Source: a virus. Taken from it: a stretch of 58,198 nucleotides of DNA. Under the pieces are notes generated by a model. That model saw only the letters and a list, made by a program, of their open reading frames with translations, searched no databases and was not told the origin of the DNA. The translations under genes and the position numbers were made by a program. Shown in pieces: positions 41,418-44,738 of this stretch. Positions within the stretch are counted from its first letter, which is position 1. Every line of letters begins with the position of its first letter. The stretch is taken from the IMG/VR virus record IMGVR_UViG_3300010373_000052, positions 1 through 58,198 of that record. One strand, written 5' to 3'.

Positions 41418-42523
41418 GCCGCTACCGCTTCCCTGTTGGGGGCAATCTCCGACAGCACCGACAGCCACTGGTGGACCTGGTTGGCGATGCTCAGTTCTTC
41501 CGCTCTGGCCCGGTTGGCTTTTCCCTCGGCCCGGCGCACTTCGGAGTCGAGCAGGTCGTCCAGGTGCCGTCGCCACTCACGGGGTGTGCGGGCGAGCCGT
41601 CCGACGCCGAGCAGCTCGTACTCGGGGGTGCGCGAGGCGATGAACGGGATACCGCACGCCGAGGCTTCGAGCCCCTTCAGCCACGACTTGGAGTAGTTGA
41701 AGTCGGACTTTTCCAGCGGGACCAGGGCCAGGTTGATGGGGTCCCACAACTCGGGATAATCGGCGATGTGGACCAGCGGGTTCGCCGCCACCGACGTCTT
41801 GTTGAGGTTGAGACCGAGCTGGTCCCACGCCTTGGGGACACCCTTCTCCTCCGAGTCGCCTCCGTGGTAGAAGGGCAAGCCGTTCTGTTCGAGGAACGGG
41901 CCGAGGATGCCGCAGAGTTGGCCCAGGTCGTTCGCCCGCCACTGGATGCCGCCGACCCAGCCGACCATGCCGTTGCGGCCGGGGTCGTGGACCTGCCAGC
42001 GCTCGATGTCGATGGCGTTGCGGCAGATGAACGTCGGCGGTCCGAGCCGTTCGCAGAAGCGGGCCAGCGGAGCCGTCGAGCAGATGATGGCCGAGGATGC
42101 TTCGAGCATCTTGCGGTAGTGCGCCCGGTTGAACGTCGGGTTGGTCGCCGGGTTGGTCGTGTGGTACGCCAGGTTGGTCTTGGGCAGCGCCCAGAAGTGG
42201 TCGTCGATGTCGTTGACGACGATCTGGCCGCAGGCGATGGCCCGCTTCGCCCTGCTCTCGCCGTCCTCGTGCATCCAGCGCTGGAAGATGACCACGTCGC
42301 AGTCGTCGTGCCACACCCGGTCGGTGCCCATGACTTGGAGGTGGCCGTCGCTGGCCGTCCGCACGGCGAAGGACAGCATCGTGTCGTAGCCGTGCTTGGC
42401 CAACTCCATGGCGGGCATGGCCAAGCGATAGAAGTACGTCCCGCCGTAGGTCGCCGCCTTGGTCCGAGTGCCGGGGATCGTCTCGAAGCGCCAGTCCGTG
42501 GAGAACGCGGCGATCTTGGTCAA
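41414..42523 (-). CDS. GT-B glycosyltransferase (369 aa)
   Basis: TTG at 42523 overlapping the upstream stop (TTGA). Layout of GT4/GT1-like enzymes: N-terminal Rossmann half (CDVVIFQRWMHEDGESRAKR, IVVNDIDDHFWAL), then NAIDIERWQVHD, VGWVGGIQWRANDLG, and the C-terminal donor-site motif LVPLEKSDFNYSKSWLKGLE ASACGIPFIAS split, with the E-A-x-A-x-G-x-P box. Very similar enzymes act on phage structural proteins in actinophages. Works presumably with the methyltransferase at 40756. Confidence 0.85.
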   Translation of the reverse strand: MTKIAAFSTDWRFETIPGTRTKAATYGGTYFYRLAMPAMELAKHGYDTMLSFAVRTASDGHLQVMGTDRVWHDDCDVVIFQRWMHEDGESRAKRAIACGQIVVNDIDDHFWALPKTNLAYHTTNPATNPTFNRAHYRKMLEASSAIICSTAPLARFCERLGPPTFICRNAIDIERWQVHDPGRNGMVGWVGGIQWRANDLGQLCGILGPFLEQNGLPFYHGGDSEEKGVPKAWDQLGLNLNKTSVAANPLVHIADYPELWDPINLALVPLEKSDFNYSKSWLKGLEASACGIPFIASRTPEYELLGVGRLARTPREWRRHLDDLLDSEVRRAEGKANRARAEELSIANQVHQWLSVLSEIAPNREAVAA

Positions 42524-42789
42524 CCCTCGACCCTCGTCAGGTCGTCGCGGTCACACCGTGGGCAGTGCTTGATCCACGCCGTCCAGCCGCACTCGCAGAC
42601 GTAGTGCTTGCCGGTGGCCGGGGTGTTGCCCGCCTGCACGTAGCCCGCAGCCCGCAACAGACGAGCGTCACGGACGTCGTCCACATGGATGAAGTCCCGG
42701 CGGTCGTTGTCGTAGCGGGTGACCTTGCCGTTGCGGCGTTCGACGGTGATCCCCTTGGCGCTGGCGTCGGAAGGGAACATGCGCGGCAA
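42520..42789 (-). CDS. Zinc-ribbon protein next to the capsid gene (89 aa)
   Basis: TTG at 42789 with GGAGGT seven bases upstream (the ATG at 42780 is too far). N-terminal half: GITVERRNGKVTRYDNDRRD then FIHVDDVRDARLLRAAGYVQ; C-terminal ribbon HYVCECGWTAWIKHCPRCDR. The family occurs beside actinophage capsid genes. It is preceded by a 245-bp gene-free stretch with RNA hairpins. Confidence 0.7.
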   Translation of the reverse strand: MPRMFPSDASAKGITVERRNGKVTRYDNDRRDFIHVDDVRDARLLRAAGYVQAGNTPATGKHYVCECGWTAWIKHCPRCDRDDLTRVEG

Positions 42790-42807: not shown

Positions 42808-42958
42808 GAGCGAAGATGCCGTCCGCGGGTCATCACCCCCGACGGCTCTCGGCGTGACCGAGCTGGTTAGTGGTCGCGGCTACGACGGCCCACCACATCT
42901 GCTTTCGCAGGCGCTCCCGCCGTCGGAATCGAACCGACGCGCCGTGCCAACACGGGAG
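42808..42958 (-). ncRNA. Structured RNA region with tRNA acceptor/T-arm minihelix, behind the capsid gene
   Basis: The gap 42790-43034 holds no gene. On the minus strand: CTCCCGT (42958-42952) pairs with GCGGGAG (42920-42914); between them lies a perfect T-arm GTCGG-TTCGATT-CCGAC (42938-42922). D and anticodon arms are missing: only 13 nt separate acceptor and T stems. Next come CTGC-GAAA-GCAG (42910-42899), GTCG...CGAC, CTCGG-TCACG-CCGAG and GCCGTC...GACGGC. Could be a tRNA-like processing signal, a decayed tRNA or a cis-regulator of the next gene. Confidence 0.55.
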
Positions 42959-43034
42959 GATGCTGCGACGTAACTCGGCGATCTACCCTTGCGTCGTGGG
43001 CAGTGATCTCTCCGAGCTGTTGTGCTAGGTGCGT

Positions 43035-44738
43035 CTAGCCGGACTGCTGGACGCCCTGGATGAGCCCGGACCATGCCGGCGCGTAGTGCGCCATGGTGCC
43101 GATCTCAAGGGTGGAGGCGTCGTAGGTGAACTGCTGGACCGGCCACTGAATGGCCACGTAGTCCTGCACCATCGCCATGACCGAGGTCTCGGTCACGTTG
43201 GAGTCAGGAATCGGCAGGGTCACCGACCGCACCATCACGTTGCCCTGAGGCATCCACGGGTGGACGTAGAAGTCCAGCACCTTCCCAGTCACCTGGTTGT
43301 AGATGGATTGGACGACTGCGCCAGCGGTCACGCCGCCTGCGGGCTCTTGGACGTACAACTTGTAGTTGTTCACGTTCGAGCCGGCCAGCAATGCGTTGGA
43401 GAGCTGGTTGCGGTCGTGACCGTTGAACCACGCCTCGTCCGGGTCGGCCTTGACCGAGTCGTACACGGTGGAGAACAGGGTCTGGAACTCGATGCCGGGC
43501 GTCGAGGTGGAGAACGTCGAGTTGAGCCGGTTCACGTACCCACCGCTTGCCGCGATGTTGGTCAGCAACCCGTCGAAGTTCGTGGCCACCGCAGACTGGT
43601 CCGCAGCCGAAGCCGCGGTGCTGGGTCCGCTGGTCGGAGCCGACGTGATGAAGCCAACGTTGTACCCGGTGCGTCCGGCGTAGAAGTATGTCCCGCCCGA
43701 TGCCGAAGCGATGAACAGGTTGTACCCGAGCGCGCCGGCCACGTCGGCCTTGATGTCGATCTGGATGGCGTTCCCGGCGCCCACGGCGACCGAGGCACCG
43801 GCTGAAACCGGACCCTGGTGCATCGTGGTTCCGTTGGTGCCGAGCAGGTCACCCGCGTCAGCCGCGACGGCCACCCACCACGTTGCCGCGGTGAGGGTCG
43901 AAGAGCCCGCCGGGGCGACAGACGCTGCCACCGAGGCCGCGCTGGTGATGCTGGCCGCAGCCAGTGCGCCGGCGTAGCCGTTGCCCGTGGTGCCACGACC
44001 GTAGAGGTCGAAGCGCTCGTCCATCAGCATGGTCGAGTAGAGCAGGGCGGTGTTCGACAAGGACCGGATGTCCTCGAAGCCCTGACCCTGGTACTCGGCC
44101 TGCCACGACACGGAGTCCGACAGACCCCACGAGACGTAGCTGATGACCACGTCGTAACCGTCGTAGCTGATGTACGGCGGCCGGACGTAGGCCAGTCCAC
44201 CGGGACCGGTGTTGGTAGTGGATTCGGTGATACCGGGCTGCAGGGTGGTTGCCCCGCCAGTTCCGGTGCCGGTGAATCCGCTGATGACCTTGAACCGACG
44301 CGACGCACCCTGGGCGCGCACACGCGGGATGCTGTTACGCAGCGGCGTGGGACGCGGGGTGAGCAGCTTCGCCGGGGCTTCGAGGTCGAAGGGGACCAGA
44401 CCGGTCGAAACCGGGTTCGAAAGCGTCCACTCCTTGCTCAGCAGCTCGGCCTTGGAGCCGGTCAACTGGGCGTTGAGCGCCGCCATGACGGACGGGTCGA
44501 GGGACTTGGCCATCTCCAGCTCTTCGAGGGCCTTGCGGACCTCGGCGCGCTTGTCGGCACGCTTGGCGATGCGAGCACCCGAGGATTCGTGCTGGCCGTC
44601 GAAGTACGTCTCGCCGGTCAGACCCGAGACAGTCGAGTCGGTGGCGGCCTTGACCAGAGCGTCTTTGCGCTCGGCCATTTCCGCCGGGGAAGCCGCATCA
44701 GCGAACAGATCGCTGGCGCGGGGAAGTGCAGCAGCCAT
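43035..44738 (-). CDS. Major capsid protein, HK97 fold (567 aa)
   Basis: ATG at 44738. Residues 1-105 form an acidic/basic helical delta-like domain. Then LEAPAKLLTPRPTPLRNSIP, a long E-loop region, SDSVSWQAEYQGQGFEDIRS, TALLYSTMLMDERFDLYGRG, an inserted beta domain (~245-360, STLTAATWWVAVAADAGD), and a C-terminal P-domain segment (FQTLFSTVYDSVKADPDEAW, GKVLDFYVHPWMPQG). The insertion may decorate the capsid surface and is a candidate for glycosylation. Confidence 0.9.
   Translation of the reverse strand: MAAALPRASDLFADAASPAEMAERKDALVKAATDSTVSGLTGETYFDGQHESSGARIAKRADKRAEVRKALEELEMAKSLDPSVMAALNAQLTGSKAELLSKEWTLSNPVSTGLVPFDLEAPAKLLTPRPTPLRNSIPRVRAQGASRRFKVISGFTGTGTGGATTLQPGITESTTNTGPGGLAYVRPPYISYDGYDVVISYVSWGLSDSVSWQAEYQGQGFEDIRSLSNTALLYSTMLMDERFDLYGRGTTGNGYAGALAAASITSAASVAASVAPAGSSTLTAATWWVAVAADAGDLLGTNGTTMHQGPVSAGASVAVGAGNAIQIDIKADVAGALGYNLFIASASGGTYFYAGRTGYNVGFITSAPTSGPSTAASAADQSAVATNFDGLLTNIAASGGYVNRLNSTFSTSTPGIEFQTLFSTVYDSVKADPDEAWFNGHDRNQLSNALLAGSNVNNYKLYVQEPAGGVTAGAVVQSIYNQVTGKVLDFYVHPWMPQGNVMVRSVTLPIPDSNVTETSVMAMVQDYVAIQWPVQQFTYDASTLEIGTMAHYAPAWSGLIQGVQQSG

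Follow-up and report, generated by a model that had tools for sequence, protein, structure and literature searches.

An anticodonless, tRNA-like RNA family between phage genes and its candidate role in mRNA punctuation

Results

The gap behind the putative capsid gene

The window analysed here is the whole of a 58,198-base virus record (IMG/VR IMGVR_UViG_3300010373_000052), and the element under study lies on its minus strand, in a 245-nt gap that leads from a putative capsid gene to an 89-aa gene (Table 1). The product of the upstream gene matched PHROG 13692, a family of unknown function (E 2.4e-92), and was called a capsid protein on the basis of its place after portal and protease genes and a weak similarity to an annotated major head protein. 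A first-pass annotation had described a T-arm with a TTCGATT loop inside an acceptor-type stem, without a D or an anticodon arm, and this structure was indeed present. It had given the acceptor as 7 bp; an extra C:G pair (42958:42914) does exist, but the constant part across the family is a stack of 6+6 or 5+6 bp. The GAAA-tetraloop hairpin said to lie behind the element was located as well, while the proposed chain of further hairpins up to the ribosome site of the next gene was rejected as a conserved feature: 42840-42912 was no more stable than expected (z -0.2), and the relative L002 has a short spacer there.

Table 1. Coordinates of the features in the window and of the group I introns in capsid relatives
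Feature	Record	Position	Strand	Remark
Putative capsid gene	window	43035..44738	minus	ORF, 567 aa; the element follows its 3' end
Spacer, capsid stop to element	window	42958..43034	minus	in relatives a 7-8 bp hairpin abuts the acceptor here; indistinct in the window
Mini-tRNA element	window	42915..42957	minus	anticodonless tRNA half, 12-bp stack
Acceptor 5' strand	window	42957-42952	minus	TCCCGT; read from the sequence
Connector	window	42951-42940	minus	GTTGGCACGGCG; 12 nt; GG at 42948-42947
T-stem 5' strand	window	42939-42934	minus	CGTCGG; 6 bp with CCGACG
T-loop	window	42933-42927	minus	TTCGATT; read from the sequence
T-stem 3' strand	window	42926-42921	minus	CCGACG; read from the sequence
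Acceptor 3' strand	window	42920-42915	minus	GCGGGA; 6-bp acceptor with TCCCGT
Purine-C 3' end	window	42913..42914	minus	N73 = G, N74 = C; GCGC after the acceptor
GAAA-tetraloop hairpin	window	42899..42910	minus	CTGC-GAAA-GCAG; starts 4 nt past the element
Next gene	window	42520..42789	minus	89 aa; no family match
Group I introns	L044	2285-2936, 3069-3251, 3311-4175, 5202-5448		Rfam RF00028
Group I introns	L016	5294-5559, 6441-6684, 6894-7137		Rfam RF00028
Group I introns	L039	1906-2914, 3135-3415		Rfam RF00028
Group I introns	L015	5741-6590, 7531-7774		Rfam RF00028
Group I intron	L043	2649-2917		Rfam RF00028

ARAGORN returned no tRNA or tmRNA genes in the window or in the capsid-relative contigs L002-L021, and Rfam gave no match in the window, either at the gathering threshold or at E up to 5, so that neither program found a canonical tRNA with a different fold; in the arrays of phages Fowlmouth and Endor1 described below, only sub-threshold Rfam matches to unrelated families appeared. 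An intact tRNA was ruled out by these results and by the 12-nt connector, which leaves no cloverleaf D and anticodon arms, and a tmRNA, with its tag reading frame and tRNA-like ends, by the absence of any ARAGORN or Rfam match. The window element does not end in CCA, as GCGC stands there instead. Features of an intrinsic terminator were not found in the window either, where GCGCCTGCG follows the hairpin with no direct T run. A blastn search of the window region against phages gave no match.

Folding energies were not informative, neither for the whole gap (ordinary, z -1.0) nor for single elements, whose folds were just a little more stable than those of shuffles (z -0.3 to -2.1). No such element occurred in any of 20,000 random gaps with matching first-order composition, and the detector used below returned none in 40 Markov sequences of ~42 kb each. 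A chance origin was ruled out by these controls, since the element is absent from them and is conserved with compensatory changes. An integration site copied from a tRNA gene is unlikely, because the element keeps its place behind the capsid gene and its 5' acceptor strand covaries.

Conservation behind related capsid genes

Homologous gaps were located via the capsid protein, in 20 loci at first and then in the best 80 of 167. A capsid 3' end at ≥57% identity was present in 17 contigs (L002-L013, L015, L016, L039, L043, and L044; L014 and L019 stop inside the capsid gene), and every one of the 17 carried a tRNA-like element behind the capsid stop, 15 in compact and two in expanded form; near-identical contigs reduce these to 12 distinct ones, or 13 including the window. 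Model R1 gave a strong match in 15 of the 17, a partial one in L007 (E 0.03), and none in L003, the last two scoring poorly on account of their larger insert and lengthened acceptor. The downstream gene varies within the group, and the element is therefore tied to the end of the capsid gene and not to the next gene. A small hairpin directly precedes the acceptor in 9 of 10 folded relatives of the capsid group (the exception being L030), while the window has no tight hairpin there and carries the GAAA hairpin after the element instead.

In 58 other sources, distant capsid relatives (~29-46% identity) of which a few lack the 3' end of the capsid gene, no match exceeded 20.2 bits, and the element was consequently rejected as a general property of the capsid family. 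Many distant relatives have a plain long hairpin behind the stop. Among L041-L101 (capsid ~40-46% identity), many show a single long G+C-rich hairpin directly behind the stop, at the place of the mini-tRNA. Five relatives also contain twelve group I introns in or beside the capsid gene, all above the gathering score of Rfam RF00028 and at most four per locus (Table 1); in intron-bearing relatives the element is placed after the last intron.

Covariation was assessed in alignment A7, which holds 11 distinct compact rows of the capsid clade found via capsid homology and excludes two expanded rows. The contigs left out of A3 and A7 were L003/L029 and L007/L033 (expanded), and L006, L008, L010, L012, and L013 (near-identical). 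Standard pairs filled 99.2% of 132 cells in A7 as against 84.6% after shuffling, 9 of 12 pairs had changes on both sides, none of 500 shuffles matched the observed pairing or both-side-change value, and pairing was destroyed when the partner was slid by 1-3 columns. The homologous gaps thus showed strong compensatory change at the structure that the first-pass annotation had singled out. All six pairs of the T-stem covary in the capsid-clade rows, and in the acceptor TCCCGC/GCGGGA is replaced by TCCCAT/ATGGGA in L015; the connector TGG and the acceptor CCC/GGG are invariant, and the T-loop is altered in two rows (L044, ATCGTCT; L015, TCCGATT).

A wider set of 54 rows (A6; left out were L039, 4 of 48 listed references, and 6 detector hits) had both-side changes in 12 of 12 pairs and paired 93.9% of 644 cells as against 54.2% shuffled, values that are biased upward because its phage rows came from a scan that requires pairing. 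The covariation in A7 and the R3 test described below are independent of that scan.

Spread among phages

A DNA pattern scan gave 112 stretches, mostly chance, of which a structural filter left L194 and L123 as convincing outside the capsid group. The pattern scan led outside that group to one copy each in G002, a record of 166 kb, and G001, of 72 kb. In G001, R1 found six strong copies and one weak copy and the detector eight in the fetched region, in gaps between genes. The copy in G002 (L245 6299-6347) lies between two adjacent genes that resemble paralogues of each other. A G001 protein led by tblastn to the mycobacteriophages Fowlmouth, Cuke, Indlulamithi, Send513, and others.

Model R3, trained on the 11 capsid-downstream copies only, was then applied to 21 whole records. 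It found 9 copies in Fowlmouth, 9 in Cuke, 8 in Indlulamithi, and 5 in Send513, and none in 11 further isolates (Bongo, REQ1, RobinSparkles, Marvin, Fryberger, Hermeonysus, Konstantine, Patience, Trina, Aziz, and Shagrat). The pattern-picked records held 6 (G001), 1 (G002), 5 (G021), 5 (G022), 4 (G026), and 2 (G030) copies. The wider model R2 returned 9, 10, 11, and 14 copies in the four positive mycobacteriophages and 7 in Konstantine; the remaining 10 isolates and 8 additional records chosen by a pattern yielded no copy.

A second pattern, ACTGGCAGACA, five bases, and GTTCGAGTC, gave 47 stretches, and the detector found 139 elements in 41 of the 46 loci newly fetched after it, among them Streptomyces phages such as Endor1 and Lorelei. 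All 14 such records contained one or more copies according to R2 (9 in that of Endor1), a count that is not independent because the pattern had served to choose them. By megablast, two array regions matched 130 and 117 phage records, nearly all of Streptomyces, which counts shared regions and not elements. When a 2-kb query was compared with 19 Streptomyces and Mycobacterium phage records, the only DNA shared among the matches listed was ~40 bp at the element. R2 was also applied to 26 bacterial genomes that belong to a single order and were accessed via a Beijerinckiaceae genome; it found no copy among at most 150 scored candidates per genome, a result that, with no positive control, is a weak test of specificity.

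The membership of the window element in a family with arrays in isolated actinophages had been overlooked in the first-pass annotation, and the record annotations carry no RNA feature at the elements in the regions retrieved from Fowlmouth, Cuke, Indlulamithi, Send513, Konstantine, and Endor1. Two further tRNA-related observations were made in tRNA clusters of phages: in L139 (5663-5706, minus strand) a tRNA-like gene combines an ordinary acceptor with a T-arm and a part resembling a D-arm, apparently without an anticodon arm, and L111 (11066-11107) has a weak mini-tRNA-like match (27.5 bits) within a cluster of 26 predicted tRNAs in a 94.6-kb phage record.

Sequence features and placement of the copies

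Since the detector requires pairing, GG, and TTCRA, the conservation of these in its output reflects selection by the detector; position 73, C74, and the relation to position 59 lie outside its criteria. Among 83 distinct copies the stack was split 6+6 in 37 and 5+6 in 37, so that about half have 11 bp. N73 was a purine in 78 of 83 and N74 was C in equally many, while N75 was G in 53 and C in only 6, which means that there is no CCA end. The first pair was G-C in 52 of 83, and A predominated at N-1, with T in 2 of 83. The bases at the two positions behind GG covaried with T-loop position 59 (GGTT-U, GGCA-G, GGTC-C) at a mutual information of 1.07 bits, a value reached in none of 2000 within-record permutations (mean 0.42, maximum 0.73). 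A D-loop/T-loop elbow contact would produce such covariation.

In the four mycobacteriophages, 36 of 44 copies lay in gaps between annotated genes and 8 overlapped short annotated ORFs by more than 12 nt. The overlapping copies are L246 4977-5026 and 5842-5891, L247 7432-7481 and 7715-7764, and four more in L248 and L249, and the short hypothetical ORFs over them, or their start codons, may be wrongly annotated. For the 43 mycobacteriophage copies with both neighbours, the distance from the stop to the element was 5-17 nt in 37 (7-9 nt in 28), and that from the element to the next start was 35-57 nt in 35. A small hairpin usually followed 3-4 nt past the element, at the same place as the GAAA hairpin of the window, and then came a purine-rich ribosome site; flank stability against mononucleotide shuffles had a median z of -1.8 and was below -2 in 16 of 43. 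In Endor1 all nine copies were in gaps, seven of them 5-14 nt past a stop. Some copies carry inserts at the place of the anticodon arm, and expanded forms occur in L003, L007, and some Fowlmouth gaps.

Discussion

The existence of a conserved mini-tRNA-like RNA family, with an 11-12 bp stack, a T-loop, a D-loop-like GG, and a purine-C end and without an anticodon arm, is well supported. Its members sit on the coding strand between a stop and the next start, singly behind the capsid gene in the window's group and in arrays in other actinophages. With canonical tRNAs the window element shares the 12-bp acceptor/T-arm stack, the T-loop, and the elbow GG; in the wider family roughly half of the stacks are 11 bp. 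It may act like a tRNA-like RNase P substrate, yet it lacks features that define a tRNA.

I consider it somewhat better than an even bet, judging from comparative sequence evidence, that the mini-tRNA serves as mRNA punctuation, with host RNase P and a 3' tRNA-end nuclease as the cutting enzymes. Cutting by RNase P is suggested because the element keeps the parts that the bacterial enzyme reads: it cleaves hairpins made of an acceptor and a T-arm, stacks on the T-loop, gauges a length of 12 bp, and base-pairs with RCC, and interference is strong at G19, G53, A58, and G71 (PMC11143913). The T-stem-loop and the stack of ~12 bp of such substrates are both present in the element. Of the 3' RCC motif, which pairs with P15 of the enzyme, most copies have the purine and the first C, but N75 is mostly G. 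RNase Z accepts substrates reduced to acceptor and T-arm, and it is inhibited by a CCA end, which the copies do not have. Under the punctuation reading, host RNase P would cut the transcript before the element and a 3' tRNA-end nuclease, probably one such as RNase Z, after it, leaving an upstream mRNA that ends shortly past its stop and a downstream mRNA that opens with a hairpin. A polycistronic mRNA would in this way be split into units with small hairpins at their new ends, which most of the capsid group have ahead of the element and the window and the mycobacteriophages behind it, and the capsid and other messages would gain their own ends and decay rates.

Counted in favour of cutting were the both-side changes in A7, the out-of-sample copies found by R3, the placement in gaps, the position-59 link, R73 and C74, and the inserts at the anticodon place. 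Counted against it were the absence of CCA, the rarity of U at N-1, the 11-bp stack in half of the copies, the plain hairpin in distant capsid relatives, the unremarkable energies of single elements, and the 8 of 44 overlaps with ORFs. The broader claim, that a large group of actinophages punctuates polycistronic mRNA with purpose-built minimal tRNAs, host RNase P, a 3' nuclease, and end-protecting hairpins, I regard on the same comparative grounds as evenly poised.

An element that is never cut, and whose fold by itself keeps genes apart, shields mRNA ends, or insulates ribosome binding sites, would suit a position between stop and ribosome site beside a second small hairpin, and distant capsid relatives have a plain hairpin at the same place. 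A plain hairpin, however, needs no T-loop, no GG with its position-59 covariation, and no purine-C end, which makes this reading rather unlikely. A transcription element read by RNA polymerase, of the antitermination or pausing type to which the put RNAs of phage HK022 belong, is improbable: repetition on the coding strand along gene arrays, as in an early operon, would agree with it, but the window's group has a single copy only, behind the capsid gene, and tRNA elbow features are not known to be required by such RNAs.

Of the three options in the first-pass annotation, an mRNA processing site is the one that the comparative evidence favours most. A decoy or sponge for enzymes that bind tRNA or for defence proteins that target it, to which mimicry of the acceptor/T-arm half would lend itself, is quite improbable, as a decoy needs no fixed place between stop and start and would be invisible to anticodon nucleases, and CCA is absent. 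Still less credit can be given to a functionless relic of a tRNA gene. The resemblance to a tRNA without its anticodon arm and the expanded forms would agree with such an origin, but it is contradicted by the near-complete pairing and compensatory changes in the capsid clade and by the multi-copy arrays. A DNA repeat that promotes recombination between phages is very improbable too; the elements do lie at boundaries of small genes and one can be the sole DNA common to two phages, but stems vary between copies and pairing is kept, which argues that RNA structure and not DNA sequence is selected.

Several known systems resemble the proposed punctuation by mini-tRNAs. AT1-type RNase P model substrates (PMC11143913) are synthetic and join the two strands directly, whereas the mini-tRNA is natural, has a connector GG that covaries with the T-loop, lacks CCA, and is located in mRNA gaps. 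The tymovirus-type tRNA-like structures, pseudoknotted and RNase P-cut genome ends of plant RNA viruses, are likewise viral RNA that mimics the acceptor/T half, while the phage element is a plain hairpin domain inside the mRNA of a DNA phage; phage RNAs described as cut by host RNase P include M3 RNA, C4 antisense RNA, and T4 gene 32 mRNA (PMC11143913). In mitochondrial tRNA punctuation, as it is generally described, tRNA units between genes are also the presumed cutting sites of polycistronic RNA, but those are full functional tRNAs, in contrast to the anticodonless phage units, for which I infer the cutting. The known phage substrates of RNase P are single cases and are not known to form a repeated mini-tRNA family. 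At the 3' end of MALAT1, RNase P cuts off the tRNA-like mascRNA and leaves the long RNA with a new 3' end under structural protection; this system is eukaryotic, confined to a single locus, and keeps more of the cloverleaf than the phage mini-tRNA does.

Cluster M mycobacteriophages have conserved repeats with stem-loops between many genes (CR1-CR4; PMC7953290), but in Bongo and Aziz, two phages of that cluster, R2 gives no mini-tRNA copy. A literature search found no description of elements such as those reported here, although they may have been noticed earlier in Pope 2014 (cluster M) or Smith 2013 (R4-like phages).

The family is a conserved RNA without an Rfam match that isolated M. smegmatis and S. 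coelicolor phages carry with no RNA annotation, and it suggests a general phage route by which mRNA ends are set by host tRNA enzymes. The idea is testable with existing phages, RNA sequencing, and purified RNase P. If true, each gene would get its own mRNA ends from one promoter, and the arrays would be the equivalent, in viruses of bacteria, of the tRNA punctuation of mitochondria. The minimal RNase P substrate would then have a natural use, and the elements would reveal how small a part of a tRNA suffices in nature for its processing enzymes.
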